Source: Streptomyces kanamyceticus (GTDB lineage: Bacteria; Actinomycetota; Actinomycetes; Streptomycetales; Streptomycetaceae). From it: a DNA stretch of 64,000 bases. The stretch covers positions 1,736,001 through 1,800,000 of the forward strand of contig NZ_CP023699.1 of the NCBI RefSeq assembly GCF_008704495.1, given 5' to 3'. The translations under genes and the position numbers were made by a program. Shown here one piece after another: positions 38,114 to 64,000 of the stretch. Within the stretch, counting starts at the first letter, position 1, and each line of letters starts with the position of its first letter. The notes beneath the pieces are model-generated. The model was given only the letters and a program-made list of their open reading frames with translations. It was not told where the DNA came from and did not search any database.

Positions 38114-38284
38114 ATGACGCTCCCGCACTCCGCCGAGGCCGACGCAACGGCAGACCGGTACCCGGGCCCCAACCAGTCGTTCAAGGACGACCTGGACGGC
38201 CTGATCGACGCCACTCTCCTGTCCGGCTGCGCCGAGCAGTTCGCCGACACCACCGACCAGCCAGGGAAGGGACGCAATGACTGA
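38114..38284 (+). CDS. 56-residue small acidic protein heading the FAAL operon
   Basis: Short gene with a near-ideal site (TTGGAGGA, 6 bases before the ATG), overlapping the next ATG by 8 bases. The product is acidic and hydrophilic, with a possible helix KDDLDGLIDATLL and one Cys (C39). It is not recognised. Being the first gene of an operon with tight coupling supports that it is real. It could be a precursor peptide, a small subunit or a leader; nothing in the sequence decides. Confidence 0.65.
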   Translation: MTLPHSAEADATADRYPGPNQSFKDDLDGLIDATLLSGCAEQFADTTDQPGKGRND

Positions 38285-39224
38285 CGCAGGCGCCACGGAG
38301 CGCATAGGCATCGCCGTCGCGTCGGGGATGCTCAAAGGGGTCTACGGTCACGGCGTCCTGTCCGCGTTCGAGGAACGCGGGCTGCGCGCCGACGTCTACG
38401 GCACCGCCTCGTCCTCCGTCCTGTCCGGCGGCCTCGCCGCGGTCGGCAGGGCCCGGCGCACCGGCGTGGACTACTGGCTGAAGGCCACCGCGGCCGCCGC
38501 GGAGAAGGGCATGAGCGCCGTCGTCCTCGACAGCATCGAGGAGTACGGACCCGTCCTGCGCGAGGGGCTCTTCACGGCGCGGGCGCCGGAGTTCCTGCTC
38601 GCCACGGGGAAGGTCACCAATGCGGCCGCCGCCGAGATCACCCAGGGCTCCGGCGCGAAGGCGCTGGGCAGGGACCTGCTGCGCAACGTCTTCGCGGGCG
38701 ACCGGAGTTGGGTCGAGGAGAACCTCGCCACCGTCGTGTTCTCCTCCCGCGCCGAGCCCGGCAGCGCCGAGCCGCGACTGACCCCGGAGAACTACGACGC
38801 CGTCTCCTACGCCTCGACACGCATGCTGCACGCCTGGGCCGTCCCCGCGGAGATCGACGGCGAGGCGTACGTCGACGCCTCGTACACCTGCTCCTGTCCG
38901 GCCCGCGAGGTCGCCGCCAAGGGGGTGGACGTGCTGATCGCGATCGGCTCCGACCCCTTCCCGCTCTTCCGCGACCTCTACGCGTCCGAGGAGATCGTGG
39001 ACGGCTCCGTCGTCGGGCAGGCACGCGTCCTGGTGATCAAGCCGGACGACGACCTCAAGAACCTCGGCGTCGACTACGCGTCGGCGACGGCGGACGGGCT
39101 CGTCAAGGCGTACGAGCTCGGCCTTGAGGCGGGCCACCGGTTCGTGGACGCGCACGGCGAGCTGCTCGCGGCCGACTCGGCAACAGGCTCTGCGGGGACC
39201 GGAGTTCAGGGGGAGAGCGCGTGA
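38277..39224 (+). CDS. Patatin-like phospholipase/acyl-hydrolase-fold protein
   Basis: 315 residues. The opening GIAVASGMLKGVYGHGVLSA corresponds to the patatin oxyanion-loop region, and EAYVDASYTCSCPAREV followed by GVDVLIAIGS matches the region of the patatin Asp. The nucleophile elbow reads YGTASSSVLSGG where GTSAG is expected, so the standard Ser position is Ala. It may be non-hydrolytic or use an adjacent Ser. It probably handles acyl chains in the pathway. Coupled to the small protein upstream and the ferredoxin downstream (GTGA). Confidence 0.65.
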   Translation: MTDAGATERIGIAVASGMLKGVYGHGVLSAFEERGLRADVYGTASSSVLSGGLAAVGRARRTGVDYWLKATAAAAEKGMSAVVLDSIEEYGPVLREGLFTARAPEFLLATGKVTNAAAAEITQGSGAKALGRDLLRNVFAGDRSWVEENLATVVFSSRAEPGSAEPRLTPENYDAVSYASTRMLHAWAVPAEIDGEAYVDASYTCSCPAREVAAKGVDVLIAIGSDPFPLFRDLYASEEIVDGSVVGQARVLVIKPDDDLKNLGVDYASATADGLVKAYELGLEAGHRFVDAHGELLAADSATGSAGTGVQGESA

Positions 39225-39571
39225 CACACGTCGTCACCGAGCAGTGCGTCCACTGCAAGTTCGCGGAGTGCATCACCTACTGCCCCGTCGCCTGCTTCCG
39301 GGAGGCCGGTACGTTCCTGGTGATCGACCCCGAGGAGTGCATCGACTGCGGCAACTGCGTAGAGGCGTGCCCGGCCGACGCGATCTACCCCGAGGACGAG
39401 CTGCCGCCCGAACTCGCGCCCGCGCTCGAATGGAACGCCCGGCTCTCCACCGAACTCCCCCTGGCCACCACGCGCGTCGAGCCGCTGCCCGACGGCGAGC
39501 AGTGGCAGGGCAGGCCCGGCAAGTGGGACACCCTCCCCGTCGAACAGGCACCCCGTGTCAGCTGTCCGTGA
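39221..39571 (+). CDS. 7Fe/8Fe-type ferredoxin
   Basis: 116 residues from a GTG overlapping the upstream stop. Two clusters of cysteines: CVHC, AEC and YCPV, then CIDCGNCVEACP, in the pattern of Streptomyces dicluster ferredoxins. The C-terminal 60 residues are an unpaired extension. It would pass electrons to an oxidase in the cluster, for example the acyl-ACP desaturase at the window end or an acyl-CoA dehydrogenase-like enzyme. Overlaps the FAAL gene by 17 bases. Confidence 0.87.
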   Translation: MTHVVTEQCVHCKFAECITYCPVACFREAGTFLVIDPEECIDCGNCVEACPADAIYPEDELPPELAPALEWNARLSTELPLATTRVEPLPDGEQWQGRPGKWDTLPVEQAPRVSCP

Positions 39572-41318
39572 CCCCGACGGCTTCGCGGGCTTCGCGCGGC
39601 TGCTGTACGAGCGGGCCCGCCACGCTCCCGACGTCGTCGCCCACCGGTTCGTCCACGAGGACGAGTCCGCCGAGGAACTCACCCACGCCGCGCTCGACGC
39701 CCGCGCACGCGCCGTCGCGGCGGGGGTCCTCGCGGCCACCGACGGGCGCCCCGAACCGGTGCTGCTCCTGTTCGCGCCGGGGCCCGACTACCTCGCCGCC
39801 CTGTTCGGCTGCTTCTACGCGGGCGTACCCGCGGTGCCCGCGTTCCCGCCGGACCCCACCCGGCTCGCGCGCACCCTGCCCCGGCTCGCCGCCATCATCG
39901 AGGACGCCGGGTCGAGCACCGTCCTGACCACCTCGGACATCGCGCCGCTCATGGCGGACTGGCTCACCGAGACCTTCGGCGGCCGGGCCCCGCGCCTGAT
40001 CGCCACCGACACGCTCGACGCGGCGGGCGCGGGCACCGGCACGGAGCCGCCGCCCGCGCCCAGGACCGGTGTGCCCGCGCTGCTGCAGTACACCTCGGGT
40101 TCGACGGCGCTGCCGCGCGGCGTGCTGCTCGACCAGGACAGGCTGCGGGCCAACTGCGCGGAGATCGCGCGCGGCTTCGGGATCCACCCCGGCAGTTCGG
40201 GCGGCCTGTGGCTGCCGCCGTACCACGACATGGGCCTGGTCGGCGGCATCCTCACGCCGCTCGCCACCGGCATCCCGGTGACCCTCATGTCACCGGTGAC
40301 GTTCCTGCGCCGCCCGCTGTCCTGGCTCCGCATGGTCTCCCGGTACCGCGCGACGATCATCGGCGCCCCGAACTTCGCGTACGACCTCTGTGTGCGCCGC
40401 GCGACGGACGCCGAGGTCGAGGCGCTCGACCTGTCCGGGGTCGAACTCGCCTTCACCGGCGCGGAGCCCGTGCGGGCCGAGACGATGGAGCGGTTCGCCG
40501 CGCGCTTCGGGCCCGCCGGGTTCCGTGCCGCCTCCTTCCTGCCCTGCTACGGACTCGCCGAGGCGACGCTGTACGTGACGGGCGGCAAGCCGCTTGGCGG
40601 CTGGCAGACGGTCTCCGTGGACCGGGAGGCCCTCGAAGCGCGCGGCACGGCGCGGCCCGCACGGCAGGGGCAGCCGTCGAGGTCGCTGGTGAGCTGCGGC
40701 AGGCCGGGGCCCGGCACCCGTCTCCTGATCGCCGATCCGGCCACCCGCGAGCCCCTCGCGGACGGCGCCGTCGGCGAGATCTGGGTCGACTCGCCGAGCG
40801 TCACCGACGGGTACTGGCGGCGCCCCGAGGAGACCGCGCAGACGTTCGGCGCGCGGACCGCGACCGGCGACGGCCCCTACCTGCGCACCGGCGACCTCGG
40901 GTTCCTCCTGGACGACGAGCTCTTCGTCGCCGGCAGGCTCAAGGACCTGATCGTCATCAACGGCCGCAACCTCCACCCGGTCGACGTCGAGCGGGTCTGC
41001 GAGGCCGCGGTCCCCGGCATCCGGCGCAACTGCGGCGCCGTGTTCGCGATCGAGGGCGCGGCGGGCGGCACCGAGCGGCTCGTCGTGGTGTACGAGGCGG
41101 ACATCGCCGACGAGGAGCGGTACGCCGAAGCCCTCGACGGCATCCGCAGGGCCGTGTCGAGGGAGCTGAACGTCCGGCCGGGCGCCGTCGTCCTGGTGCG
41201 GCCCAGGACCATCCCCAAGACCTCCAGCGGAAAGGTCCAGCGCTGGCTGGCCCGTCGGCACTACCTCGCCGGCGAGCTGGAAGCACTCGCAAGCACCGAC
41301 GAAAGGGCCGGGCGATGA
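39555..41318 (+). CDS. Fatty acyl-AMP ligase (FAAL)
   Basis: 587-residue adenylating enzyme of the FAAL class. P-loop LLQYTSGSTALPRGV, motif WLPPYHDMGLVGGIL, SFLPCYGLAEATLYV, YLRTGDLGF, and late IPKTSSGKVQRW. FAALs activate a fatty acid as acyl-AMP and transfer it to an ACP rather than CoA, the usual way to start lipopeptides and PKS/NRPS hybrids. The ACP at 44171 is the probable acceptor, and the NRPS starter C domain the next step. ATGA coupling to the ThiS-like gene. Confidence 0.93.
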   Translation: MSAVRDPDGFAGFARLLYERARHAPDVVAHRFVHEDESAEELTHAALDARARAVAAGVLAATDGRPEPVLLLFAPGPDYLAALFGCFYAGVPAVPAFPPDPTRLARTLPRLAAIIEDAGSSTVLTTSDIAPLMADWLTETFGGRAPRLIATDTLDAAGAGTGTEPPPAPRTGVPALLQYTSGSTALPRGVLLDQDRLRANCAEIARGFGIHPGSSGGLWLPPYHDMGLVGGILTPLATGIPVTLMSPVTFLRRPLSWLRMVSRYRATIIGAPNFAYDLCVRRATDAEVEALDLSGVELAFTGAEPVRAETMERFAARFGPAGFRAASFLPCYGLAEATLYVTGGKPLGGWQTVSVDREALEARGTARPARQGQPSRSLVSCGRPGPGTRLLIADPATREPLADGAVGEIWVDSPSVTDGYWRRPEETAQTFGARTATGDGPYLRTGDLGFLLDDELFVAGRLKDLIVINGRNLHPVDVERVCEAAVPGIRRNCGAVFAIEGAAGGTERLVVVYEADIADEERYAEALDGIRRAVSRELNVRPGAVVLVRPRTIPKTSSGKVQRWLARRHYLAGELEALASTDERAGR

Positions 41319-41581
41319 TCGTCAAGGTCAGGGGCGTCCTGCTCCGCTTCACCGACTACGAGAACGAGATCGAGATCGGCGGCGGCACCGTGCGCGCCGG
41401 TCTCACCGGCCTGACCGAGCGCTACCCGCGGCTGCGCGAGGTGCTGCTCGACCGGGACGGCACCGTGCGCCCGACCCACCTCATCGCCCTCAACGGCGAG
41501 CGGCTCACCCAGGGAGAGCTGGACCGCGAGGCCACCGAGGACGACCGGGTCGACATCGTCACCGCGATCTCCGGGGGCTAG
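41315..41581 (+). CDS. ThiS/MoaD-like beta-grasp carrier protein
   Basis: 88 residues ending in the diglycine GG that E1-like enzymes adenylate and load with sulfur. VRGVLLRFTDYE, the LNGERL loop and VDIVTAISGG fit the ThiS/MoaD beta-grasp fold. The ATGA overlap with the FAAL gene puts it at equal stoichiometry. No E1-like (ThiF/MoeB) or sulfurtransferase gene is in the window. It could supply thiocarboxylate sulfur to the product by borrowing a housekeeping E1, or have a non-sulfur role. Confidence 0.78.
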   Translation: MIVKVRGVLLRFTDYENEIEIGGGTVRAGLTGLTERYPRLREVLLDRDGTVRPTHLIALNGERLTQGELDREATEDDRVDIVTAISGG

Positions 41582-41584
41582 CCG

Positions 41585-42412
41585 ATGCCCCGCACCTCGG
41601 CCTACGAGACCGTGCTCGACGCGGGCCAGTTCACCCCGACGCAGCTGGGGACCACGGCCGTCGGCAGGCTCGCCTTCCAGGCGGGGGCCCGCTGGCTGCG
41701 CGACCACGTGGCCAGCCACCGAACCCTCGTGAGTCAGCATCAGGTCGGATTCGTGCTCTGGTCATGGCAGTTGGAGTACGAGTCGCCGCTCGGCTTCCTC
41801 GACGCCGACGCCGCGCTTGTGGACGTACGGGCCCGGCTGCGCGGCCCCGCCGCCTCGCAGCTGGAGGTGGAGATGACGCTCTCCGGTCCCGCAGGTGTCG
41901 CGGTGCGCACCCGGGGGGCGTCGGTGCCGCTGCGGCTCGGCGGCGACCAGGCGCTCTCCGGGGCGCCCGCGCCGCTGCCCGACGCGCTGGTGGCCGCCTT
42001 CAAGGACGACGAGGTCGAGCGCTCGCCGCACCGCTCCGCCGTGCGGGCGCTGCGCGGCCGGTTCGAGCGGGACGGGGAGCGGCTCGCCGATGGCACCACG
42101 TCCTATCGCGTGCACCGCCATCACTGCGAGGTCGCCGACCAGTGGTACTGGGCGGAGACCCTGGGGTTCGCCGCGGGCGCCCGGGAGGAACTCGTGCTGC
42201 GGCACGGCCGTTCGGCGCCCGAGCTGCGACGCGCGCTCGCCGACGGCATCCGGGCGGTCGACGTGACCTGGCTGCGCTCGGGCCAGCTGTGGGACCTCCT
42301 TGAGGTCCACAGCACGGCGTACCGGCACGGCGACGAGCTCGCCTTCGTCCATGAGATCAGGCTCGCCGACGACGACGGCGGGCCCTGCGCCCTGGTGGTG
42401 GAGCGGATATGA
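41585..42412 (+). CDS. Hotdog-fold, thioesterase-like protein
   Basis: 275 residues. Two halves look like hotdog repeats: residues about 40-130, and about 175-275, the latter with HRHHCEVADQWYWAETLGF in the position of a hotdog active-site segment. No exact family is assigned. It could be a thioesterase, dehydratase-like or acyl-thioester-binding enzyme for the FAAL/ACP line. ATGA overlap with the acyl-CoA dehydrogenase gene. Confidence 0.55.
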   Translation: MPRTSAYETVLDAGQFTPTQLGTTAVGRLAFQAGARWLRDHVASHRTLVSQHQVGFVLWSWQLEYESPLGFLDADAALVDVRARLRGPAASQLEVEMTLSGPAGVAVRTRGASVPLRLGGDQALSGAPAPLPDALVAAFKDDEVERSPHRSAVRALRGRFERDGERLADGTTSYRVHRHHCEVADQWYWAETLGFAAGAREELVLRHGRSAPELRRALADGIRAVDVTWLRSGQLWDLLEVHSTAYRHGDELAFVHEIRLADDDGGPCALVVERI

Positions 42413-44145
42413 CCGCGATCGAGGCGGAGCGGGAAGCCGACAGCTCGGCGGGTGCCGGGGTCACGCCGCCCGCCTTCGAGGGTGCGGCGCGTCTTGAGCG
42501 CACGCTCGGCTGCCCGTTCGACCCCGGTACCGGCATGTCGCTGGCCGGGGGCGTGCGCGCGGACGAGAGCGAGAGCGAACCCACCGCCGCCTACGAGGCG
42601 GCCTGGGCGGCCGGCCTTCACCGGCATCTGGTGCCCGTGTCCGAGGGCGGCGGCCTCGCCTCGTTCGAGTCGTTCGCGGCCGTGGCGCGCGCCGTGTCGC
42701 GCCGTGATCTCGCGGTCTCGGTGGGGCTCGGCTCGACGTTGCTCGCCGCGACGCCCGTATGGATCTGGGGCGACGACGAACAGCGGGCCCGCGTCGCGGA
42801 GTTGGTGCTCGGCCGGGCCTGGGGCACGGCGGGCATCAGCGAGGAGGAGGCAGGCAGCGATCTGCTCGCCACCGCCACCCGCGCGGTCCCCGACGGCGAA
42901 GGCCACGTACTCAACGGCAGGAAGTGGCTGGTCGGCAACGGCGGCAGGTCCGCCTTCGCCACCGTGCTCGCCGCGTCGGAGCCGTCGTACGGCCTGTTCC
43001 TGCTCGACTTCGAGGCCATCGGCGGCGCCGGGGTGCGGCGGCTGCCCAAGGTCCCCACGCACGGTCTGCGCGGGCACGACCTGAGCGGCTTCGTCCTGGA
43101 CGACTGCCGGGTCGGCGCCGACGCCGTGCTCGGGCGTCCGGGGCGCGGCATCGAGATGGTCTCCGGCATGCTCCAGTTCACCCGGACCCTGGTCGGCGCG
43201 AGCAGCCTCGGCGCGGCCGATACGGCGCTGCGCATCGCCCTGCGGCACGCCCGCGAGCGCGTCCTGTACGGCGCGCCCGCGCTCGCCCTGCCCCCGGTGC
43301 GGTCGCTGCTCGCCAGGGGCTTCGCCGACCTGCTGGTCGCCGAGTGCACCCAACTGGCCGCCGCGCGCGGCCTGGACGTGGCGCGGCAGCGGATGGCGCT
43401 GTGGTCAGCCGTGGCGAAGTACGCGGTGCCGGGGCTGTGCGTGGACACCGTGGGAGCCTGCGGCGAAGTGCTCAGCGCGCGGGCCCATCTGCGCGAGGGC
43501 GCCGCGGGCGGCGCGTTCCAGAAGCTGCTGCGCGACGTGTCCATCACGCCCGTCTTCGAAGGCACCGAGCTGGTCCAACTGGACACGGTGCGAGCCCAGT
43601 TGGCGGCGGCTGCCCGGCGCCCCCGGAAGCCCGCGCAGGTGCCGCTGCCGGTGCTCTTCGGGTTCGGCGAACCGGCGCCGTCACCGGCCCCGCGCGAGCT
43701 GCGGCCCGCGCTGACCTTCGGCGGCGCCGACGAGATCGTCGACCTCCTCGACGAGGCGGCACAGGCACTGGCCGACGACGCCGAACTAGCCCCTCTCGTA
43801 CGCACGTTGGTGGCCATCCGCGACGAGAACCGGGCGGCGTTCCGCGCGCTCGGCACGCGGCGCACGGCCGACGCGTACGAGGCGGCCCGCACCCACTGCC
43901 TGCTGCACACGGCCGCCTGCGTCCTGCACACCTGGCAGTGGCGCGGCACGGCCATCGGCGGGCTCGCGGCCGGGCGGCACTGGGTCTCTCTCGCGCTGCG
44001 CCGCGTCCTTGCCAGGCTCGGCCGTCCCGCCGCGCCGGACCCCGACGCCGAGGACCTGCTCGTACGCGATCTCGTCCGGCTCGACGACGAGGACCGGGCG
44101 TTCTCGCTCGTGCCGCTGCGGATCGCGCCGCGGCACCGCGGCTGA
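42409..44145 (+). CDS. Acyl-CoA/acyl-ACP dehydrogenase
   Basis: 578 residues. Acyl-CoA dehydrogenase fold: GTAGISEEEAGSDLLA (middle domain), HVLNGRKWLVGNGG, and the C-terminal helical domain with PVFEGTELVQLDTV. A C-terminal extension of about 160 residues beyond the usual length is helical. It would introduce an alpha,beta double bond into the activated acyl chain, as in lipodepsipeptide clusters with unsaturated lipid tails. Confidence 0.87.
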   Translation: MTAIEAEREADSSAGAGVTPPAFEGAARLERTLGCPFDPGTGMSLAGGVRADESESEPTAAYEAAWAAGLHRHLVPVSEGGGLASFESFAAVARAVSRRDLAVSVGLGSTLLAATPVWIWGDDEQRARVAELVLGRAWGTAGISEEEAGSDLLATATRAVPDGEGHVLNGRKWLVGNGGRSAFATVLAASEPSYGLFLLDFEAIGGAGVRRLPKVPTHGLRGHDLSGFVLDDCRVGADAVLGRPGRGIEMVSGMLQFTRTLVGASSLGAADTALRIALRHARERVLYGAPALALPPVRSLLARGFADLLVAECTQLAAARGLDVARQRMALWSAVAKYAVPGLCVDTVGACGEVLSARAHLREGAAGGAFQKLLRDVSITPVFEGTELVQLDTVRAQLAAAARRPRKPAQVPLPVLFGFGEPAPSPAPRELRPALTFGGADEIVDLLDEAAQALADDAELAPLVRTLVAIRDENRAAFRALGTRRTADAYEAARTHCLLHTAACVLHTWQWRGTAIGGLAAGRHWVSLALRRVLARLGRPAAPDPDAEDLLVRDLVRLDDEDRAFSLVPLRIAPRHRG

Positions 44146-44170: not shown

Positions 44171-44455
44171 ATCACCACCACCGACCACGCGCACGGCACC
44201 GCCGAGTCCGCGGGAGCCTGGCTCTCGCGGCTGATCGGCGAGCTGCTCGGCATCGACGAGGAGCTCCCCGCCGACCGGCCGCTCGGCGAACTCGGCATCG
44301 ACTCGCTCACCGCGGCCCAGCTCTCCGTGGAGGTCGAGGAGCGCACCGGCGCCACCATCGCCCTCGACCGGTTCCTCGGCGACGAGACCCTCGACGACCT
44401 GGTGCGCGCCCTGCGCGCAGAGGCGGATCCCGCCGCTCCCGGGGCCGCGGCATGA
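44171..44455 (+). CDS. Acyl carrier protein with ATC start
   Basis: 94 residues. The phosphopantetheine site is Ser45 in ELGIDSLTAAQ; length and helices fit a stand-alone ACP. No ATG, GTG or TTG occurs in frame between the upstream region and the ACP core. An ATC (44171) in the frame ITTTDHAHG has the site AGGGAG 6 bases ahead and is the best start; an error in the sequence (ATG read as ATC) is the alternative. It is the probable acceptor for the FAAL. ATGA overlap with the next gene. Confidence 0.82.
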   Translation: MTTTDHAHGTAESAGAWLSRLIGELLGIDEELPADRPLGELGIDSLTAAQLSVEVEERTGATIALDRFLGDETLDDLVRALRAEADPAAPGAAA

Positions 44456-46869: not shown

Positions 46870-46882
46870 CAGACACACTGAC

Positions 46883-46914
46883 GTGCGGCGGGCCTGCCCC
46901 GGGGCCCGCCGCAC
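46883..46914 (+). terminator. Hairpin terminator of FAAL operon
   Basis: Perfect 12-base inverted repeat (46883-46894 and 46903-46914) with an 8-base loop, 13 bases after the stop of the fused dehydrogenase gene. Confidence 0.85.
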
Positions 46915-47333
46915 GGCAGTGGCCCGTGTCCCCACCCGGCGGCCGAGTCGCCGTCATGAGCTGCGCGGCGCCGTGTGACCGGCCTGCACACGTCTCGCCG
47001 CTTCAACCGCTTCAACCGCTTCAACCGGATACGACCGACATCACATCCACGGTTGATCGCCGCCCAATACACCCCTCGGCACACACGTCCAGTTCATGCC
47101 GAAGCGCAGCGCGAACCTTGCTCGCGGCATCACTGGCCTCGGGGACCCTTCGAGCGTGACCCGAATCAGTGTCGGCGCGAGCTGGTGCAAGGCTTCCTGC
47201 GGAGCGACCTGCCTCCGCGCAACAGTTTCTGTCACAAGCCGATTGGGGCAGTAGACGCGTACCTCCGGGCAGCCGCGCGCGCGGTCGGCGTCGCGCAAGG
47301 GCGCACCACGGTCGTAGGGGCGAGCGGTGCGCG
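46915..47333. other. Intergenic region between convergent operons
   Basis: Three tandem copies of CGCTTCAAC lie at 46999-47025. The remainder is lower in GC than the neighbours. A leftward frame of about 65 codons (47041-47235) has no clear ribosome site and poor codon bias, and is probably not a gene or is a decayed one. Confidence 0.5.
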
Positions 47334-53868: not shown

Positions 53869-53880
53869 GAGGTGCGTGCG

Positions 53881-54717: not shown

Positions 54718-55140
54718 TCAGCCCTGGCCGAAGAGCGTACGGGCGAAGTACTGGGTGTCGAAGTACTCCCGCATGCTGCGGATCTGCCCGTCCTCGACGG
54801 TGAACTGGGCACTGATGTCCAGCTCGTAGGGAGCGCCGTCGCGGGTCGTGGCCCGGGTGACGCACTCGACCGACACCTCGGCGCCCTCGGCGATGACGTG
54901 CAGGACGTCGACCGCGTAGTCGGCCGTCGGGTCGAAGCGCTCCCCCATGGGCAGCAGGAAATTCTCGGCGATCTCCGCGAGTCCCTTCCAGGTGCCCGCC
55001 ACCGGGTGGTCGCCCGGTATGCGGTAGACGGCGTCGGCGGCGATGAGCTGCGGGATGGCCGCGGCGTCGCGTTCGCGCAGGGCCTTGAGGTAGCGGTGCA
55101 CGACGCTTTTGGCCTCGGCGCCGGTATCGGGGTGGTTCAT
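54718..55140 (-). CDS. SnoaL-like/NTF2-fold protein
   Basis: 140 residues, ATG with GGGAG upstream. NTF2-like cone: KSVVHRYLKALRERDAAAI, then FTVEDGQIRSMREYFDT near the end. Members include polyketide cyclases and small tailoring or isomerase proteins. No catalytic residues can be assigned. The location between the FAD monooxygenase and aldolase genes suggests a tailoring step. Confidence 0.82.
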   Translation of the reverse strand: MNHPDTGAEAKSVVHRYLKALRERDAAAIPQLIAADAVYRIPGDHPVAGTWKGLAEIAENFLLPMGERFDPTADYAVDVLHVIAEGAEVSVECVTRATTRDGAPYELDISAQFTVEDGQIRSMREYFDTQYFARTLFGQG

Positions 55141-55172: not shown

Positions 55173-56345
55173 TCATTCGTCGAGCAGTTGCGGCGTCAGG
55201 GCCCGCTGGAACGGCTTGAAGAGCACGGACTGGGGGGCGTGGCGCAGGTATACGTCGCGTACGGCGCGCAGCACGGGGTTCTCCAGCTGCTCGAAGCCGC
55301 CGAACTTGCGGGAGACCTCCACCATTTCCCTGGTGCGCTCGCGCCGCAGCTTCTCGTAGGCGCGCAGGGCCGCCACCGGGTCCTTGCGCGACGCCAGGCA
55401 CTGCGCGAGCACCACGGCGTCCTCGATGGCGGTGCTGCCGCCCTGGCCGAGGCTGGGCAGCATGGGGTGGGCGGCGTCGCCGAGGAGCGTCACGGGCCCT
55501 TCGCCCCAGTTCTCCAGGAACGGCCTGTCCTGGGCCGGTACGGCGACGATGTCCTCGACCGGCGTGGTCCTGATCGCCTCGCGCACCTCGTCCGCCCAGC
55601 CCGCGTAGGCGCGCACGATCCGGTCCTTGTCACCGTCCCAGTCGCGGGCGGCGTCGGCGGGCATGTTCACGGTGCCCCACCAGTAGGCGCGGCCCTTTCC
55701 CACGTCGTGCAGGCCGAACCGGCTGCCGAGGCCCCAGTAGTGGGCGTTGAACCCCTTGGTGATCTTCGGGTGGGTGAAGGGGGTGACGGAGAGCCAGCAC
55801 AGGAAGCCCCCGTAGCGCGGGCCCCTCTTGTCACCGGTGACGGCCCGCCGGATCGCGGAGTTGATGCCGTCGGCGCCGATCAGGATGTCGCCGGTGGCCT
55901 CCCTGCCGTCCTCGAACGTGACGCGTACGCCGTCGCCCGTGGTGTCGTAGCCGGTGGCGACCGCGCCCAGCGAGACGGGCAGTCCGCCGAGCGCGTCGAG
56001 CAGCGCCGCCTGGAGGTCGCCGCGGTACATCGCGACGCTGGGGGCGCCGAGCCGGTCGCCCGCCGTCTCCAGGGGCAGCGAGCGGAGCGTGCGGCCCTTG
56101 TCGGTCATGATCTCGGTGTGCAGGATCGTCTGGCCGCGCTTCTCCAGGCCGAGGTCGATGTCCAGGGCGCGCAGCGCGGCCACCGCGTTGCTCATCACGG
56201 AGATGCCGAAGCCCGCGGGGCGCAGTTCGGGCGCCCGCTCGTAGATCTCCACCTCCACGCCCACGCGGCGCAGGGCCACGGCGGTCGCCAGACCTCCGAT
56301 GCCCGCTCCGATCACGATCGCCCGGGGGTTGGTGCGCTCAGACAC
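55173..56345 (-). CDS. FAD-dependent aromatic monooxygenase
   Basis: 390 residues. GAGIGGLATAVALRRVGVEV binds FAD, DGINSAIR is the DG motif, and GDAAHPMLPSLGQGGSTAIE the second FAD motif. Related to salicylate hydroxylase-type enzymes and to the epoxidases/hydroxylases of manumycin-type pathways. Likely hydroxylates the aminohydroxybenzoate-derived ring. GTG start; 8-base overlap with the NRPS end. Confidence 0.87.
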   Translation of the reverse strand: MSERTNPRAIVIGAGIGGLATAVALRRVGVEVEIYERAPELRPAGFGISVMSNAVAALRALDIDLGLEKRGQTILHTEIMTDKGRTLRSLPLETAGDRLGAPSVAMYRGDLQAALLDALGGLPVSLGAVATGYDTTGDGVRVTFEDGREATGDILIGADGINSAIRRAVTGDKRGPRYGGFLCWLSVTPFTHPKITKGFNAHYWGLGSRFGLHDVGKGRAYWWGTVNMPADAARDWDGDKDRIVRAYAGWADEVREAIRTTPVEDIVAVPAQDRPFLENWGEGPVTLLGDAAHPMLPSLGQGGSTAIEDAVVLAQCLASRKDPVAALRAYEKLRRERTREMVEVSRKFGGFEQLENPVLRAVRDVYLRHAPQSVLFKPFQRALTPQLLDE

Positions 56346-59300
56346 GTCGCTTTCCCTTCTCTGCGGTGCCGGACTCGGCCAGTTCGGCGACCGCGGCCGC
56401 CACGTCGGCCACGTGCGGCTCCTCCATGATCGAGAGATGGTCGCCGGGTACGTGGACGACCTTCACGTGGCCGGTGGTCATGGTGTGCCACCCGTTGGCC
56501 GGGTCGGTGTGCTGGGTGCCGCCCGCGCCGTGCATCGCCCGCAGGACCCGCGGGAGCGGCTCGGAGGCACGGATCAGGGTGATGTCATCGGCGCCGGGTT
56601 CGGGCTGATAGTGCTGTGTGGCACGCCAGTTGGCCTCGTACACCCGGAACAGCCGCCCGACGAGGGAGCCGTCGCTGTCCGCGGGCAGAATGCCCTCGTC
56701 GGTCGCGGTCCTCGCGATGAAGCCGAACTTCTCATCCAGCGTGGTGAGTTCGGCGGGAATCGCCTCGATCGGCGAGTCGCCGCCGCGGCCGAGCAACAGC
56801 AGCTCCCAGAAGAACCAGCCGAGCAGCGCCTCGTCGGTGTATCCCTGGCGTTCCTCCGCGGGGCCCAGGGCGACCGTGTCCAGGAGGATCACCTCGGCCA
56901 CCTCGTCGCCAGCGGCCCGCAGTTGGCGTGCCATCTCGAAGGCCACGAAGCCGCCGAAGGACCAGCCGCCGACGACGTACGGGCCCTGGGGGCGCACCCT
57001 GCGCATCGCCTCGATGTAGCTCGCGGCGATGTCGGGGACGGAGCGCAGCGGCTCGGTGCCCAGGTCCCCGCCGGACGCCTGGAAGGCGAACAGCGGCTGC
57101 CCTTCGGGGAGATGGCGGGCCAGCGGCACATAGCAGAGCACGTTGCCGCCCATCGGGTGGGCGAGGAACAGCGGCGTGCGCTCGCCCTCGGCGCGGATCG
57201 GCACCAGCGGGTCGAAGGAGAGCGTGGCGCCGCCGGACCGCAGGAGTTCCGCGAGCGCGGCGACCGTCGGCGCCGCGATGAACCCGGAGATGGGGATGGT
57301 GACGCCGTACCGCTGCTCGATGAGGACGACGAGCCGCATGGTGGTGAGCGAGGTGGCACCGAGCGCGAAGATGTCGTCGTGGACGCCGACGCTCCCGACG
57401 CCGAGCAGGCCGCCGAGCAGCTCCGCGAGCGTCCGCTCGTACGCGTCCCTGGGCGCCTGCCCGTCCGACGCCTCGGGCCGATCGAGCCGCAGGGTCCGCA
57501 GCGCCCCGTCGTCCCGCTTACCGCTCGGTGTCAGCGGCAGCTCGGGCAGCCACGCGAAGTGGTCCGGCACCATGAACTCCGGCAGGAGCGTGCGCAGTTC
57601 ACCGCGGAGCGCCACCAGATCGGTGGATTCGGGGTCGCCGACCAGGAAGGCGACGAGTCCGGTGGATCCGTCCGCCGCCGCGCGGGCGACCACGGCCGCC
57701 TCCTTGATGCCACCGCCCGCGGGGCCCGCGGCGAGGCGCACGAGGGCGACCTCGGCCTCGGCGGGTTCGACGCGGTAGCCGCGGATCTTCACCTGGGTGT
57801 CGGCCCGGCCCGCGTACGCGAGGGAGCCGTCGGGCAGGACGAGACCCAGATCCCCCGTCCGGTAAGCGGTGACGGCCCCGCCGGGCAGCGTGACGGGGAC
57901 GAAGCGCTCCTCGGTCAGCGCCGGGTCGCCGAGGTAGCCGTCGGCGAGCGCGGCGCCGGTGAGGAACAGTTCGCCCTGCACGCCGGTGGGCACGGGGCGG
58001 CCCTTCGGGTCGAGGACCAGCACGTCCGCGCCGCTGATGGGGGCGCCGATCGGGACGATGGCGGGGAAAGCCGCCGGGTCCCCGGCCAGGGTGTGGGTGG
58101 ACACCACGTGGGACTCGGTCGGCCCGTACTGGTTCTCCAGGACGGCTCCGGGCAGCGCGGCGAGCAACGTCCGGATCTCGTCGGTGACCCGCAGTTGCTC
58201 CCCCGAGGAGCAGATCACCCGCAGCCCGCGAGGCACGACACCGAGCGCGGCCGACGCCTCCGCGAGCTGCTGCAGGGCGACGTAGGGCAGGAAGATCCGT
58301 GCCACGCCCTCGCGGTCGAGCATCCTCAGGAGCGCGGGCATGTCCCGCCGTTCGGCCTCGGCGACCAGGCGCAGGGTGCCGCCCGAGCAGAGCGTGGAGT
58401 AGATCTCCTGGAAGGAGACGTCGAAGCTGAGCGGCGCGTACTGCGCGGTGGTCCCGCCCGCGGCCGCGCTCGTGGCGCGGATCTGCCAGCCGATCAGGTT
58501 GGCGAGCGAGCGGTGCGGCATCACGACGCCCTTGGGGCGTCCGGTGGATCCTGAGGTGAAGAGGATGTAGGCGGTGCTGGCCGGGTCGAGCGGACCTTCG
58601 GAAACGCGCGGGTGCGGCTGGGACTGGGGCTCGTGCTGGGACTGGGGCTGCCGCTGGGGCTGCCGCTGGGGCTGCGACTGTGGCTGCTGCGACTGCGACT
58701 GCGACTGCGGCTGCGGCTGCGGCTGCGTCGCCTCGTCGTCGAACAGCGACTCCGCCGTCAGCAGCGGCGCCCCCTCCCCGAACGAACCGGCGTCCGCCGC
58801 GCGGGCGATGATCCGGAAGGGCTCCGCATCGGCCACCATCGCGGCGATCCTGGCCGCCGGATAGCCGGTGTCCAGCGGCACGCACGCGGCCCCGGCCATG
58901 GCGGTGCCGAGGATCGCGGCGATCGTCTCCGGCGAGCGGTCCATGGCGATGCCGACGCGGGCGCCGGGGCGAGCACCGAGGGCGACGAGCCGCCGCGCCA
59001 CGCGCTCGGAGTGCTCCGCCAACTCCCGGTAGGAACAGGCGCGTTCACCGGTGGACACGGCGGGCGCGTCGGGGGTGCGGTCGGCCTGGCGCCGGAAGAG
59101 GCACACCACGTCCTCGTCGAAGGGCGCGACCATCTCCGTACGCGCCGCGCCCTCGGCCAAGAACGCGAAGTCCGGTGCCTCGTCGGGCTCGTCGACGATG
59201 CGGCGCAGCACTTCGGTGTAGGTGTCCCCGAAGAGCTCGGCCTGTGCGGGCGTGATGCCGCGGCCCTCGCCGTCGATGCGCAGCGTCACCGAGCCGTCGA

Positions 59301-62300
59301 CCGGGTGCGTGAACGCGTTGACCAGGAGCTGGAAGTCGGTCTCCTCCCAGGCCGTGAACTCCTCAAGACGTACGTCGGGCAGGCGCAGCACATCGGAGAG
59401 CACGTGGAAGTGCACGTAGTTGAAGGCGGTGTGCAGCACCGGGGCGCCGTGGTCCTCCTGGATCGCGCTCAGCGGGTAGCGCTGGTGGGGGCGGCCCGCG
59501 CGCTCCTGCCGGAACAGTTCCCGTACGACGTCGAGCCAGCTGCCGTCGGCCTCGGTCTCGGTCTTGGTGACGCGCACGGGCACGGTGTTGAGGAAGAGCC
59601 CCACCATCCGCTCCGCGCCCTCGCGCTCGGGTCTGCCGTGGGTGATGAGCCCGGTGGTGAAGTCGTCGGCCCCGGAGAGCAGTCGCAGTGTCAGGGCGTA
59701 CGCGGCGAACAGCAGGGACTTGACCGGCAGCGCCTGCTCCCGGGCCAGCGCGCGGGCGCCGCGCACGACGTCGTCGGGCAGTTCGACGAGCCGGACGACC
59801 AGGTCGTCGCCGCGCGGCGGTTCGGCGGCCGCGAAGCCGTCGAGCCGCAGCGCGTCGGCCCCGTCCGTCACCGTCTTCCAGTGCTCGCGCGCCGCCGGGT
59901 CGGCCAGCGCCGCGCGCTCGCCCCCCAGGTGATGGGCGGCGGCGGGCGGCGCCTCGTCCGTGACGGGCCCGATGTCCGCGCCCAGGGCGTGCAGATAGTC
60001 CTGGAGGAGTTCGGTGAGGAGGTTGGCGACGCTGCCGCCGTCGAGCAGCGCGTGGTGGAAGCCGAGCACCAGGTCGACGCCGTCGTCGCGGACGTGGGCC
60101 CGGAACAGGTACAGCGGCGCGTGCTCGAACCGGTAGCGGTGGTAGCGGCGTTGCTCGATGTGGGCGTGGATCTCGTCCTCGGCGTCCGGCGCCGGGCGGC
60201 CGCGCAGGTCGACCACGTCGAGGCCGCCCGGCGCGTCCGCGTGCACGAGCTGCAGCGGCTCGGTGAAGCCGCCGAGGTCGAAGGAGGAGCGCAGCGCGGG
60301 GTGCCGGGCGGCGATCCTGGCGAAGGCGGCCCGGAAGTGCGTCTCGTCCCAGGCCATGGCGAGCCGGTAGCGGAACACGTCGTGGTAGACGGCGGAGTGC
60401 TCGCTCTGCAGGCTGTGGTAGACGAGGCCGAGTTGGAGGCGGGTCAGCGGGAAGGCGTCGACGGCGTCCGTGATGCGGGCCCGGTCCACCCGGGAGACGA
60501 GGCCGAAGGGCGGCAGCTCGGCGGCGGGGCCCGCTGCCCCGGTGGCGGCGTGCGCGGCGAGGGCCGCGACCGTCGGGTGCCACACGAGGTCGTTCAGCGA
60601 GAAGTGGATGCCCTGCCGCTCGGCGAGGGCGCGCAGGCGCAGCATCAGGAGTGAGTCGCCGCCGAGCGCGTAGTAGTCGTCGTGGATGCCGACCCGCTCC
60701 GCGCCGAGCACCTCGGCCCAGATGCCGACGAGTACCCGTTCGGTCTCGGTGCGGGGCGGGGCGCCCGGCTCGCCGCGACTCGTTTCCGGGTCCGGCAGTG
60801 CGCGCCGGTCCAGCTTGCCGTTGGGGGTCAGGGGTATCGCGTCGATGCGCGGCAGATGGGCGGGGATCATGAACTCGGGCAGTTCGGCCGCGAGTTGCTC
60901 GCGCAGCCACCTCGGGTCGAGGTCGTCCTCGCCCGTCCAGTAGCCGACGAGGTAGGTGCCGCGCCCCGGGGACGTGCGGTCCACGACGGCGGCGTCCCGT
61001 ACGCCGTGTATGCGGACCAGGGCGTCCCGGACCTCGCCCGGTTCGACGCGGTTGCCGCGGATCTTCACCTGGCCGTCGATGCGGCCGAGGTACTCCAGGG
61101 TGCCGTCGGCGAGCCAGCGGGCGAGGTCGCCGGTGCGGTAGAGCCTGCCGCCGTCGACGAACGGCGCGGGCACGAACTTCTCCCGGGTCAGCTCGGGTCT
61201 TTCCAGGTAGCCGCGGGCGAGCGCGACACCGCCGATGCACAGCTCGCCCGGTACGCCGACGGGCTGGGGCGTGCCGTCGGGGCCCACGACGTACAACTCC
61301 GTGTTGTCGATGGGGCGTCCGATGGGGACCCGGGTGACGGGCCGTCCCGGGTCGGCAGGGCAGGTGTGGGCGCAGACGTCCACGGTCGCCTCGGTCGGCC
61401 CGTACAGATTGGTCAGCGCCGGTGCCCCCGCGACACCGGCGTAGACGCGGTTGAACTGGTCGACGCGCCCCGGGGGCAGCGCCTCACCGCTGCACACCAC
61501 GTGGCGCAGCGAGTCCGCCCGCGCACGGTGGCGCGGCGATTCCTCCAGGAGGTCCAGGAAGGGACCGAGCATGGAGGGCACGAAGTGTACGACGCTGACG
61601 CGGTGTTGGGCGATGGCGTCGAGGAGTTGGCGCGGGTCCTTCTCGCCGCCGGGCGGCAGCAGCGCCACGGACGCGCCCTCGATCGCCCACCAGAACAGCT
61701 CCCACACGGAGACGTCGAAGGAGATGGGGGTCTTCTGCAGGAGTACGTCGTCCTCGCCGATCGGCAGGGCGCGCTGCATCCAGGCGAGGCGGTTGACCAC
61801 CGAACGGTGCTCGACCATCGCGCCCTTGGGGCGGCCCGTGGACCCCGAGGTGTAGATGACGTAGGCCAGGTCGCGGGGGCCCGCCACGGGTTCGAGGGCG
61901 GCCGCGGAGCCCTGCATCAGGTCGTCGACGGGGCACACCGGCGTCCCGGCGGGTACGGGCAGGTCCGGGGCCTCCGCGTCGGTGACGACGACCTTGGCGC
62001 CGCTGTCCTGGAGGATGTGGCCGATGCGCGCCGCCGGGTAGCCGGGGTCGACGGGGACGTACGCGCCACCGGATTTGAGGACGCCGAGGACGGCGGCGAG
62101 CATCCGCGGGCCGCGTTCCATCAGCACGGCGACACGGTCGTCACGGCCCACCCGGCGCGCGCGCAGCGACCGGGCCACTTGGTTGGCGAGGGCGTCGAGT
62201 TCGGCGTAGCGGATGGTCTCCTGCTCGTCGTCGCCGAGCACCGCGGTCCGGTCGGGGAAGCGGGCCGCCCGTTCCTCGAACAGGGCGTGCAGGGTCGTGT

Positions 62301-63675
62301 CGTCGGCGAACGGGACGCGGGGGCCGCGGGCGAAGCGCTGGAGGGTCTCCTGCTCGCGCGCGGAGAGCATGTACAGCTCGCCCGCGGGCAGTTCGGGCTT
62401 GTCGAGCCCGTGCGCGATCAGCGACGTCAGATGTTCCACGAGCGAGGTGACGGTCAGGTCGTCGTCGAACACGTCGGTGGCGTAGCGCACTTCGATCCGC
62501 AGGTCCGAGCTGCCCCTGGCGCCGACGACGGCGACCGCGAGCGCCTCCTGCTCGTGCGGCGGCGCCGTGAACGACACGCCGCCGCGCACCACGCCGTCCA
62601 GGGGCAGCGGGTTGCGCAGCGTCAGATAGGAGAGGGTGACGTCGAAGAGCCTGCGCTCCCTGGACCCGTCGGCGGGCAGCTCCCGCAGCAGGTCCCCGAT
62701 CGGCAGCCGTTGGTGCTGCTGGAGGTCGCCCACCGATTCCTGGAGGTCGGTGGCGATGCCCGCGAGCGGCTTCCCCTCGGGCACCTCGATGCGCAGCGGC
62801 AGGGTGTTGGCGTACTGCGCGACGGCTGTCAGCTCGGCCCGGGTGCGCCGGTTGAGCAGGGGTACGCCGATCACGGCCTGGGTGGTCCGGTGCACGCGGG
62901 CGAGCCAGGTGCCGAGCGCGGCGGCGACGTACGCGAAGGGGGTGCTGCCGCTCTCCTTGATGCTCTCGACGACGGCGCCGGGCAGCGTGAAGGTGTGCAG
63001 CCCGAAGGAGGAGCCGGTGTCCTGGACGCGCCGGGGGAAGAAGTTCGGCTCCATCAGGGCCAGTTCACCGCGGTGGTAGGCGCGGTCGTCCGCGTACTCC
63101 TGGGCGGCGAAGTAGGCGTCGCGGCCGGTGACGGCGGCCAGCACGGACGGCGCGGGGCCGCGGTCGCGCGGCTCCTGTCCCCGGGCGCGGCGCGCGTAGT
63201 CCTCCATCAGCTCGGTGTGCAGGACCTCCGCGCCGCGCCCGTCGAGCAGCAGGTGGTGGCCCTTCAGGAAGAGCTGGACCGCGTCGTCGCCCTCGCGCAG
63301 CAGCGTCGCCCGGAAGAGCCGCCGGTCACGCAGGTCGAAGGGGGTGGCCATGGTCCTCTCGCGCCAGGCCCGGCAGGCCGCCTCCGGATCGGGTTCCGCG
63401 GAGAGGTCGACGAGGTCGACGACGGGTTCGCCGTCGTCCCTGAGGGTGTCGGCGAGCCACTGGCACGGCACCCCTTCGGCGTCGTCGAAGCGGAGCCGGA
63501 AGGTGTCGTGGCGCTCCAAGACGCGCGTGAAGCACGCGCGCAGGAGCTCCCCGTCGACGGCACCGGTGAACCGCTCGTAGACGGCACCGTTGAACTGCGG
63601 GCTGCCGGGTGCCCGGGATTCCGCGAACCAGATGTCTCGCTGGTACGGCGACAGCTGAACTTTGTCGGTACTGAT
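56338..63675 (-). CDS. Two-module NRPS C-A-T-C-A-T-TE
   Basis: 2445 residues when read from ATC 63675 (ISTDKVQLSPYQRDIWF), preceded by AGGA; a TTG at 63519 would cut into the C domain. Order: C1 (HHLLLDG about residue 140, starter type), A1 (YTSGSTGRPKG), T1 (GGDSLL, S1008), C2 (HHALLDG, about 1207), A2, T2 (GATSL, S2109), TE (GWSFGG, S2239). The pocket residues of A1 read DVWHVSLVD(K), the serine code. A2 reads about DVQFCSQVV(K), not an exact known code but nearest to proline-type ones. A Gln/Pro/Ser-rich insert (1651-1689) interrupts A2. Acyl chain is probably added to Ser by C1. Confidence 0.9.
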   Translation of the reverse strand: MSTDKVQLSPYQRDIWFAESRAPGSPQFNGAVYERFTGAVDGELLRACFTRVLERHDTFRLRFDDAEGVPCQWLADTLRDDGEPVVDLVDLSAEPDPEAACRAWRERTMATPFDLRDRRLFRATLLREGDDAVQLFLKGHHLLLDGRGAEVLHTELMEDYARRARGQEPRDRGPAPSVLAAVTGRDAYFAAQEYADDRAYHRGELALMEPNFFPRRVQDTGSSFGLHTFTLPGAVVESIKESGSTPFAYVAAALGTWLARVHRTTQAVIGVPLLNRRTRAELTAVAQYANTLPLRIEVPEGKPLAGIATDLQESVGDLQQHQRLPIGDLLRELPADGSRERRLFDVTLSYLTLRNPLPLDGVVRGGVSFTAPPHEQEALAVAVVGARGSSDLRIEVRYATDVFDDDLTVTSLVEHLTSLIAHGLDKPELPAGELYMLSAREQETLQRFARGPRVPFADDTTLHALFEERAARFPDRTAVLGDDEQETIRYAELDALANQVARSLRARRVGRDDRVAVLMERGPRMLAAVLGVLKSGGAYVPVDPGYPAARIGHILQDSGAKVVVTDAEAPDLPVPAGTPVCPVDDLMQGSAAALEPVAGPRDLAYVIYTSGSTGRPKGAMVEHRSVVNRLAWMQRALPIGEDDVLLQKTPISFDVSVWELFWWAIEGASVALLPPGGEKDPRQLLDAIAQHRVSVVHFVPSMLGPFLDLLEESPRHRARADSLRHVVCSGEALPPGRVDQFNRVYAGVAGAPALTNLYGPTEATVDVCAHTCPADPGRPVTRVPIGRPIDNTELYVVGPDGTPQPVGVPGELCIGGVALARGYLERPELTREKFVPAPFVDGGRLYRTGDLARWLADGTLEYLGRIDGQVKIRGNRVEPGEVRDALVRIHGVRDAAVVDRTSPGRGTYLVGYWTGEDDLDPRWLREQLAAELPEFMIPAHLPRIDAIPLTPNGKLDRRALPDPETSRGEPGAPPRTETERVLVGIWAEVLGAERVGIHDDYYALGGDSLLMLRLRALAERQGIHFSLNDLVWHPTVAALAAHAATGAAGPAAELPPFGLVSRVDRARITDAVDAFPLTRLQLGLVYHSLQSEHSAVYHDVFRYRLAMAWDETHFRAAFARIAARHPALRSSFDLGGFTEPLQLVHADAPGGLDVVDLRGRPAPDAEDEIHAHIEQRRYHRYRFEHAPLYLFRAHVRDDGVDLVLGFHHALLDGGSVANLLTELLQDYLHALGADIGPVTDEAPPAAAHHLGGERAALADPAAREHWKTVTDGADALRLDGFAAAEPPRGDDLVVRLVELPDDVVRGARALAREQALPVKSLLFAAYALTLRLLSGADDFTTGLITHGRPEREGAERMVGLFLNTVPVRVTKTETEADGSWLDVVRELFRQERAGRPHQRYPLSAIQEDHGAPVLHTAFNYVHFHVLSDVLRLPDVRLEEFTAWEETDFQLLVNAFTHPVDGSVTLRIDGEGRGITPAQAELFGDTYTEVLRRIVDEPDEAPDFAFLAEGAARTEMVAPFDEDVVCLFRRQADRTPDAPAVSTGERACSYRELAEHSERVARRLVALGARPGARVGIAMDRSPETIAAILGTAMAGAACVPLDTGYPAARIAAMVADAEPFRIIARAADAGSFGEGAPLLTAESLFDDEATQPQPQPQSQSQSQQPQSQPQRQPQRQPQSQHEPQSQPHPRVSEGPLDPASTAYILFTSGSTGRPKGVVMPHRSLANLIGWQIRATSAAAGGTTAQYAPLSFDVSFQEIYSTLCSGGTLRLVAEAERRDMPALLRMLDREGVARIFLPYVALQQLAEASAALGVVPRGLRVICSSGEQLRVTDEIRTLLAALPGAVLENQYGPTESHVVSTHTLAGDPAAFPAIVPIGAPISGADVLVLDPKGRPVPTGVQGELFLTGAALADGYLGDPALTEERFVPVTLPGGAVTAYRTGDLGLVLPDGSLAYAGRADTQVKIRGYRVEPAEAEVALVRLAAGPAGGGIKEAAVVARAAADGSTGLVAFLVGDPESTDLVALRGELRTLLPEFMVPDHFAWLPELPLTPSGKRDDGALRTLRLDRPEASDGQAPRDAYERTLAELLGGLLGVGSVGVHDDIFALGATSLTTMRLVVLIEQRYGVTIPISGFIAAPTVAALAELLRSGGATLSFDPLVPIRAEGERTPLFLAHPMGGNVLCYVPLARHLPEGQPLFAFQASGGDLGTEPLRSVPDIAASYIEAMRRVRPQGPYVVGGWSFGGFVAFEMARQLRAAGDEVAEVILLDTVALGPAEERQGYTDEALLGWFFWELLLLGRGGDSPIEAIPAELTTLDEKFGFIARTATDEGILPADSDGSLVGRLFRVYEANWRATQHYQPEPGADDITLIRASEPLPRVLRAMHGAGGTQHTDPANGWHTMTTGHVKVVHVPGDHLSIMEEPHVADVAAAVAELAESGTAEKGKRRV
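58611..58725. repeat. Low-complexity Gln/Pro/Ser-coding insert in A2
   Basis: Repeats of CAG with CCG, TCG and CGG encode a stretch of 39 residues rich in Gln-Pro and Gln-Ser (NRPS residues 1651-1689). It lies before the A2 P-loop (FTSGSTGRPKG), where A domains normally have a short loop. Confidence 0.88.
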
Positions 63676-63749
63676 GAGCTTGTCCTGTTCTTGAGTAGGG
63701 CCGTTACGGAGCGGGTGGGGGATCGGGGATGGGGATGCAGGGTCGGGGA

Positions 63750-64000
63750 TCAGGAGGCCATGGCGGCCGCCCGCTTGGCTCGGGACGCCCGGACGCCCTC
63801 ACGCCGGTCGGTGAAGGAGGTGGCCTGGGTGTCCAGCTTCGACAGGAATCCCGCGAGCTCCTCGCGGGCCGCCTCGCCCGCGGGGCCGAGCCCGTCGCGC
63901 TCGAAGACGCGCAGCTTGCGCAGGATCGGCATGACCACGTTGTCGTGGTGCAGCCGCAGGTCGTAGATGCCCGCGAGGGCGATCTCCGCGGACTTGCGCC
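63750..64000 (-). CDS. Acyl-ACP desaturase, C-terminal part
   Basis: Only the last 82 residues are in the window; the gene continues past 64000. RKSAEIALAGIYDLRLHHDN followed by VMPILRKL and REELAGFLSKLD fit the C-terminal helices of actinobacterial acyl-ACP desaturases (FA_desaturase_2). It would introduce a double bond into an acyl-ACP with ferredoxin, which the cluster encodes at 39221. It lies 74 bases upstream of the NRPS, on the same strand. Confidence 0.75.
   Translation of the reverse strand, partial: RKSAEIALAGIYDLRLHHDNVVMPILRKLRVFERDGLGPAGEAAREELAGFLSKLDTQATSFTDRREGVRASRAKRAAAMAS

Follow-up and report, generated by a model that had tools for sequence, protein, structure and literature searches.

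Nested layers in a lipopeptide-type gene cluster of Streptomyces kanamyceticus that holds an aminohydroxybenzoate cassette

A 64-kb stretch of DNA from Streptomyces kanamyceticus raises the question of whether genes for lipid activation, for an aminohydroxybenzoate-type polyketide and for a nonribosomal peptide can belong to one pathway. This stretch, hereafter the window, covers positions 1736001-1800000 of a single contig of 10,133,897 bases; the analysis was extended 50 kb downstream (114 kb in all), and "ext" denotes window coordinates that run on into this part. Genes were modelled with our own codon-position script and domains were assigned with Pfam and NCBIfam; the names MFS, hydrolase 2, ferritin-like, arylamine N-acetyltransferase-like, KASIII, DUF3050, manumycin-like and CreM-like were given by eye or by inference. 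The components named in an initial annotation, that is a fatty acyl-AMP ligase (FAAL) with an acyl carrier protein (ACP) and dehydrogenases, a GriI/GriH pair with a ligase, ketosynthase (KS), chain-length factor (CLF) and ACP, a ThiS-like protein, a two-module nonribosomal peptide synthetase (NRPS) and a desaturase, were borne out by gene models, Pfam and NCBIfam. Domain scores and synteny in several genomes exclude chance as an explanation of this gene content. Our preferred answer, to which a probability of about 0.55 is given, is that a single composite cluster, about 53 kb long and with layers that would act jointly, is present.

The cluster spans about 35.5-88.1 kb on window coordinates. 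These limits were set by synteny with S. flavidovirens, whose DNA aligned to ext 35486-46868 and to ext 63762-88124, the latter span in two pieces (blastn). The range of 38114..64000 that had been taken for the cluster is therefore too short: the cluster begins about 2.6 kb earlier and finishes about 24 kb past the window, which truncates it.

The layers become apparent when the junction is compared among relatives. It was read in 12 Streptomyces loci, namely the window, S. flavidovirens, S. poriferorum, WZ.A104, S. parvulus, WAC 04229, SA15, DH41, S. buecherae, G533, G529 and G293; this count leaves out AJS327 and G551, in which the junction is unreadable, and the Kitasatospora and Catenulispora loci, in which gene order differs. 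A recurring core is made of a diazotase-like ligase, aryl ligase 2, ACP2, the ketosynthase KS2, hydroxyphenylglycine-type genes and FabI. Four loci have the FAAL line at the junction (those of S. flavidovirens, S. poriferorum and WZ.A104, and the window). The NRPS unit, which includes SnoaL and FAD monooxygenase, occurs in three of these, S. flavidovirens being the exception, and the aminohydroxybenzoate (AHBA) cassette in the window alone (1/12). CreE/CreD are in place in 8/12 loci and missing from DH41, S. buecherae, G529 and G293. This nesting probably reflects a stepwise gain of layers, with losses also possible.

The DNA of S. poriferorum P01-B04 and WZ.A104 tracks the window up to ext 46867-46869 and picks up again at 54717-54718 (blastn), and the AHBA cassette is therefore a clean 7.85-kb difference, placed exactly between two cluster genes. 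Both loci share with the window the FAAL line, the SnoaL-like protein, the FAD monooxygenase, the NRPS (73-74% identical) and the core. The idea of a single old three-part hybrid is thus not supported, since the FAAL line and the NRPS occur there without the cassette. The FAAL line is separable too, because two Kitasatospora-group genomes have its FAAL, ThiS-like, 41.6-kb and dehydrogenase genes in a different setting (FAAL identity of 76% in G149 and 71% in G209). From these comparisons, the FAAL line and the NRPS are read as descending together and the cassette as an acquired module inside them. WZ.A104 has no desaturase at the junction.

The cassette contains the following genes.

46870..54716, no strand: AHBA cassette as a whole, with nothing equivalent between the corresponding gene pair of S. 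poriferorum and WZ.A104 (blastn)
47334..47768, minus: 4HBT hotdog thioesterase (Pfam; 77% in Peterkaempfera)
47765..48433, minus: KS-like/CLF protein (Pfam)
48493..49704, minus: ketosynthase KS1, Cys motif NACVAS present (Pfam; sequence)
49694..49942, minus: starter-type ACP1 with a W-x-x-H pattern (sequence; 67% in Peterkaempfera; no Pfam match)
49939..51237, minus: FabV enoyl reductase (Pfam)
51234..52667, minus: aryl-AMP ligase 1, like the A1-position ligase of ava-type loci (Pfam, identity, tree)
52677..53795, minus: GriH-like protein, DHQ synthase II family (NCBIfam)
53881..54672, minus: GriI-like aldolase (NCBIfam; Pfam)

GriI and GriH score above the cut-off of their general family models and under that of the AHBA-specific NCBIfam models (BagB/FevI, 270.6 of 500; BagC/FevH, 446.2 of 750); both are 54-71% identical to the proteins of other GriHI loci. 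Relatives of GriI (E <= 1e-60) were found in 79/392 Streptomyces including the window, the best other being 67% identical. Fifteen GriI loci were read, the 13 best matches after the window and two lower ones: 8 are ava-type, 3 manumycin-like by our own reading (L116, L118, L120) and 4 of other types. The W-x-x-H pattern of ACP1 has been described for CmaA3 (PMC10777205).

The likeness to manumycin-type assembly that had been noted stands for one part of the cassette and not for another. Manumycin-like loci are nearer to this cluster in CLF (48-54% vs 41-48% for ava-type), in GriH (70-71% vs 59-60%) and, for two of the three, in ligase 1 (51-54% vs 49-50%; 29% in the third), which in a tree is placed with its Peterkaempfera copy and next with two manumycin-like ligases. 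A 4HBT relative occurs only in the 3 manumycin-like among these eleven ava-type and manumycin-like loci (50-62%). On the contrary, they are not nearer in KS1 (50-54% vs 52-56%), ACP1 (33-42% vs 40-43%) or GriI (63-64% vs 59-69%). Shared with the manumycin type are genes for 3,4-AHBA accompanied by a discrete KS set. It differs in that FabV suggests a reduced chain here and that this cassette is embedded in a lipopeptide cluster; no arylamine N-acetyltransferase Pfam match was obtained among the 40 cluster proteins scanned, a scan in which C5N genes were not searched as such.

FabV sets the cassette apart further. A FabV relative was looked for in the 15 GriI loci and found in 0/15. At E <= 1e-40, relatives are present in 56/392 Streptomyces including the window (best other, 47% identical), and closer proteins in the protein collection are 94% (S. 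formicae), 88% (NPDC059002), then 73% and below identical. At E <= 1e-95, only 2/388 genomes of the family remain, the window and Peterkaempfera bronchialis (G025:C1:1.64-1.72 Mb). The latter carries a colinear copy of the whole cassette with 66-83% protein identity, in which an extra ACP lies between ACP1 and FabV; the window cassette is without it (385-bp gap). This extra ACP is 30% identical to the core ACP2; in two ava-ordered operons of the Kitasatospora group, it is relatives of ACP2 (55-60%) that adjoin the ligase. The 80 kb read around the P. bronchialis cassette contain neither a FAAL line nor an NRPS nor a diazotase-like ligase. A FAD monooxygenase, a flavin reductase, an arylamine N-acetyltransferase-like protein and KS III genes were recognised by eye, and these surroundings look manumycin-like.

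The lipid line precedes the cassette.

38114..38284, plus: small protein (match in S. flavidovirens, 46%)
38277..39224, plus: patatin-like protein (Pfam 20.1 bits, below the 27.7 cut-off)
39221..39571, plus: ferredoxin (Pfam)
39555..41318, plus: FAAL (Pfam; NCBIfam)
41315..41581, plus: ThiS-like small protein with C-terminal Gly-Gly (PF02597 27.8 bits, cut-off 22.5)
41585..42412, plus: conserved protein without Pfam match (Pfam scan; predicted structure)
42409..44145, plus: acyl-CoA-dehydrogenase-like protein 1 with C-terminal extension (Pfam)
44171..44455, plus: FAAL-line ACP, probably starting at ATC (frame and start scan)
44452..46869, plus: acyl-CoA-dehydrogenase-like protein 2 with C-terminal extension (Pfam)

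The top NCBIfam families of the FAAL are fatty acyl-AMP ligases, every one under its curated cut-off. For the 41.6-kb protein, the predicted fold has a mean pLDDT of 50, and its best Foldseek match, LnmK (E 1.1e-3), is a hint at most.

Beyond the cassette lies the NRPS unit.

54718..55140, minus: SnoaL-like protein (Pfam; adjoins NRPS in relatives)
55173..56279, minus: FAD-dependent monooxygenase (Pfam; PDB sequence match; adjoins NRPS in relatives)
56338..63675, minus: NRPS, C-A-T-C-A-T-TE (domain scan; S. poriferorum copy 74% over 2389 aa)
63750..64724 (ext), minus: acyl-ACP desaturase, cut by the window end (Pfam)

The first adenylation domain of the NRPS has the code DVWHVSLVD, which we take to be near the serine code; that of the second, DVQICSQVV, was matched to no substrate. 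The attempt to assign the latter from solved structures was set aside, the top match (linear gramicidin synthase) having summed several domains and being uninformative on specificity.

Two genes may start with ATC. For the FAAL-line ACP, ATG, GTG and TTG were looked for near the alignment start and none is present; a protein similar by eye occupies the same position in WZ.A104. The NRPS, too, has none of these three codons at the point where its alignment starts, and its true start lies upstream of the TTG at 63519. In both genes (44171, plus; 63675, minus) an ATC follows a purine-rich stretch, and the NRPS start context GGACAAGCTCATCAG is identical in WZ.A104. Against an ATC start, an upstream GTG is open in S. 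poriferorum and a downstream GTG is open in WZ.A104.

FAAL-initiated lipopeptides of the daptomycin type are made by a FAAL, a free ACP, dehydrogenases and an NRPS with an N-terminal C domain. The same set, with a dedicated ACP and an NRPS opening with a C domain, is present here, but only two modules are found, and ThiS-like, patatin-like and ferredoxin genes as well as AHBA and diazo logic are added. The statement that no known pathway joins all three logics is supported: they are physically interleaved, and no equivalent, that is no described pathway with this gene set, was found in the literature searched.

The left edge of the cluster is formed by three further genes.

35582..36244, plus: TetR regulator 1 (Pfam; S. 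flavidovirens synteny has its left edge here)
36327..37106, minus: FabI-type enoyl-ACP reductase, second copy (Pfam)
37103..37906, minus: alpha/beta hydrolase 1 (Pfam)

The other FabI copy of the genome lies at position 7811529 and is 69% identical (own-genome search). Self-resistance through FabI or FabV was considered on account of this second copy and not retained, as a reductase dedicated to the biosynthesis would account for it just as well. TetR 1 and a second TetR (ext 80771-81415) are paralogues (72.5% identical), as are hydrolase 1 (37103-37906) and a hydrolase at ext 66361-67206 (45.6%). Past TetR 1, WZ.A104 and S. poriferorum have a second FAAL and a PKS-like gene of about 3000 aa.

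The core extends beyond the window (ext 64.0-88.1 kb). After the remainder of the desaturase come an MFS transporter and the second hydrolase mentioned above, both named by eye. A nitrosuccinate lyase (NCBIfam 705.5 bits vs a cut-off of 650) matches CreD (5xny) and a second nitrous-acid enzyme matches the aspartate N-hydroxylase 8cp2 (E 1.4e-197), so that homologues of CreE/CreD are predicted to supply nitrous acid. ACP2 is listed after the diazotase-like ligase and before a PPTase, and KS2 is 37% identical to KS1. The core also contains a prephenate dehydrogenase, a PhyH protein, a second aryl ligase, an aminotransferase, the second TetR and a hydrolase, together with a small operon for maleylpyruvate-isomerase-like, ACP-like and ferritin-like proteins, a thioesterase and a FAAL-like ligase; the ACP-like and ferritin-like proteins were named by eye and are without Pfam match. 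An HmaS/HPPD-family protein scores 345 bits to 2r5v (PCZA361.1), which we take to be a hydroxymandelate synthase, 322.6 to 3zgj (labelled HPPD) and 257.5 to the HPPD 1t47. With the Hmo, prephenate dehydrogenase and aminotransferase families, all four families expected of a hydroxyphenylglycine set are represented, and the set as a whole may be read as a hydroxyphenylglycine pathway. The nitrous-acid enzymes, the diazotase-like ligase and the hydroxyphenylglycine-type genes lie past 64 kb, out of view of the initial annotation, in which FabV, the second FabI, the 4HBT protein, the FAD monooxygenase and the SnoaL-like protein had not been named either.

How these parts would work together can be outlined. 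The FAAL would activate a fatty acid and pass it to the ACP encoded at 44.2 kb, and the dehydrogenases and desaturase would unsaturate it. The lipid would then prime the NRPS, which would add Ser and a second residue before release by the TE. In parallel, GriI/GriH would make 3-amino-4-hydroxybenzoate, ligase 1 would load it onto ACP1, KS1/CLF would extend it with malonyl on the core ACP2 and FabV would reduce the enoyl group, after which the aryl acyl unit would join the lipopeptide. The least certain step is a diazotisation of the amine, for which the core ligase would use nitrite made by CreE/CreD, AvaA7 for diazo removal being absent; for the AHBA amine, this step is weakly suggested. Joint action of the lipid line and the NRPS is likely, because they are together in three genomes. 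That the cassette acts jointly with the lipopeptide cluster is proposed with moderate confidence, because of its position and its missing second ACP; it is also plausible in that the core offers such an ACP, a nitrite supply and a diazotase-like ligase.

Several findings weigh against this joint scheme or against single steps of it. The argument from ACP loss is a single comparison at low identity. The HmaS-like protein (e56) passes the NCBIfam HPPD cut-off (384.6 vs 277); a plain HPPD was disfavoured by the higher score to 2r5v than to 1t47, but this model makes it a preference only. The Hmo-like FMN-dependent hydroxyacid oxidase scores higher to lactate oxidase (371 bits, two stretches) than to 4-hydroxymandelate oxidase (311). 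The best NCBIfam family of the diazotase-like ligase is the AvaA6 3-aminoavenalumate diazotase (next family, 166.6 bits), but its 483.7 bits fall under the cut-off of 975. In a midpoint-rooted tree of 31 ligases, with long branches flagged, it forms a group with the S. flavidovirens, Kitasatospora-group and Catenulispora ligases (98/91) outside the ava A6 and CreM-like proteins, themselves joined at 80/78. Homologues of AvaA7 and AvaB were not found in the 114 kb (best E 0.026 for A7; 0.008 for a short AvaB piece), and a search of the whole genome for AvaA7 gave partial weak matches (best 1.2e-8 over 143 residues). The known diazo-removal step would therefore be missing, if the amine is diazotised. 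FabV was considered as an equivalent of AvaA7 and rejected: the A7 position of ava-type loci holds a gene of 295-308 codons in 7/8 (not L117), and the five sequences read look like extended short-chain dehydrogenases/reductases of 295-307 aa, unlike FabV. Finally, no GriI match was obtained in 16/16 other genomes with the diazotase-like ligase, G061 and G205 entering by ligase match alone, in a search that found the controls (window and P. bronchialis, 2/18); several of the genomes searched are drafts and one (G404) is a metagenome-assembled genome. This argues that the ligase has another native substrate or catalyses another reaction.

Such a reading, compatible with the others, holds that the ligase never acts on the AHBA unit and works on a carrier-bound hydroxyphenylglycine-derived amine, or that no nitrite chemistry takes place; it is a serious contender, somewhat short of even odds. 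The ligase shares 41-44% identity with the proteins in A6 position at the 8 ava-type loci, and 35% with those at L121 and L122, read as CreM-like. A genome scan gave 13 loci, 9 in Streptomyces (70-88%) and 4 in the Catenulispora group (53-55%); at E <= 1e-150, it is present in 12/370 Streptomyces including the window, 10 of these at least 72% identical. In genomes without a GriI match it adjoins an AvaA1-like ligase, ACP2 and HmaS/Hmo/aminotransferase-type genes, and in the tree it has a group of its own. Kitasatospora-group loci in two genomes (L078-L081; G111, G209) keep the ava order ligase-ACP-ACP-KS-CLF-A6 (A1-A2-A3-KS-CLF-A6) beside HmaS, PhyH, Hmo and aminotransferase relatives, with no GriHI at this operon and no GriI match in the genome. 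That CreE/CreD are missing from their place in 4/12 loci would suggest no fixed need for nitrite, yet 72 of 134 ava-related clusters are likewise without CreE/CreD according to PMC10777205. The core-like Catenulispora loci L016 and L017 hold a pyruvate-dehydrogenase-E1-like pair, a KASIII-like and a DUF3050-like gene (named by eye). In G468 (L167-L169), GriHI lies about 27 kb from a ligase relative, but this GriHI is 51-52% identical and has other neighbours, and the locus was not retained as a second combined cluster.

A tentative alternative, somewhat less probable again, is that two independent pathways share one site and that the cassette is responsible for a separate small product, an arylalkanoic acid or amide. 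It would account for the lack of the cassette in those relatives whose junction was read and for its presence in P. bronchialis without the other layers. A parallel is offered by Streptomyces sp. CS057, in which NRPS and AHBA regions adjoin and AHBA-derived compounds persisted in an NRPS mutant (PMC11429834). The cassette is nevertheless placed between cluster genes and not beside them, without the second ACP of the P. bronchialis copy and next to a core with nitrite enzymes and a diazotase-like ligase. The test set at the outset, whether the operons belong to separate neighbouring clusters, thus gives a divided answer: the layers are separable by descent, but the cassette lies inside the other cluster.

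The ava/cma clusters for avenalumic and p-coumaric acid (PMC10777205) have in common with this one GriI/GriH, the aryl-ACP ligase, the starter ACP, KS/CLF, the aspartate-nitrosuccinate enzymes and an A6-like ligase. This cluster is without AvaA7 and AvaB, has its A6-like ligase outside their group and adds FabV, the FAAL line, the NRPS and the hydroxyphenylglycine-type genes. A known ava/cma-type or manumycin-type pathway is very improbable: GriI/GriH, ligase, ACP, KS and CLF are common to those pathways, but AvaA7/AvaB were not found here, nor a FabV relative in the 15 GriI loci examined, and, to our knowledge, the FAAL line and this NRPS belong to neither family.

A further, unlikely reading can be put forward. 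The core might stand at the origin of a family not yet described, whose AvaA6-related ligase would use nitrite to install a diazo group on an amine derived from hydroxyphenylglycine and bound to a carrier (an alpha-diazoketone, for example). In this strain, the captured AHBA cassette might provide that ligase with a second, aromatic substrate and, with AvaA7 missing, the resulting lipopeptide would retain its diazo or N-N group.

Should the parts act in concert, a lipopeptide bearing an aminohydroxyphenyl or diazo unit would be expected. The loci form a natural growth series, from the core to the core with the lipid line, then with the NRPS and then with the aryl cassette, in which breakpoints are readable and strains can be compared by product. 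Moreover, a group of AvaA6-related ligases from Streptomyces, Kitasatospora and Catenulispora, in genomes where no GriI was found, makes it testable what such a ligase diazotises, if anything.

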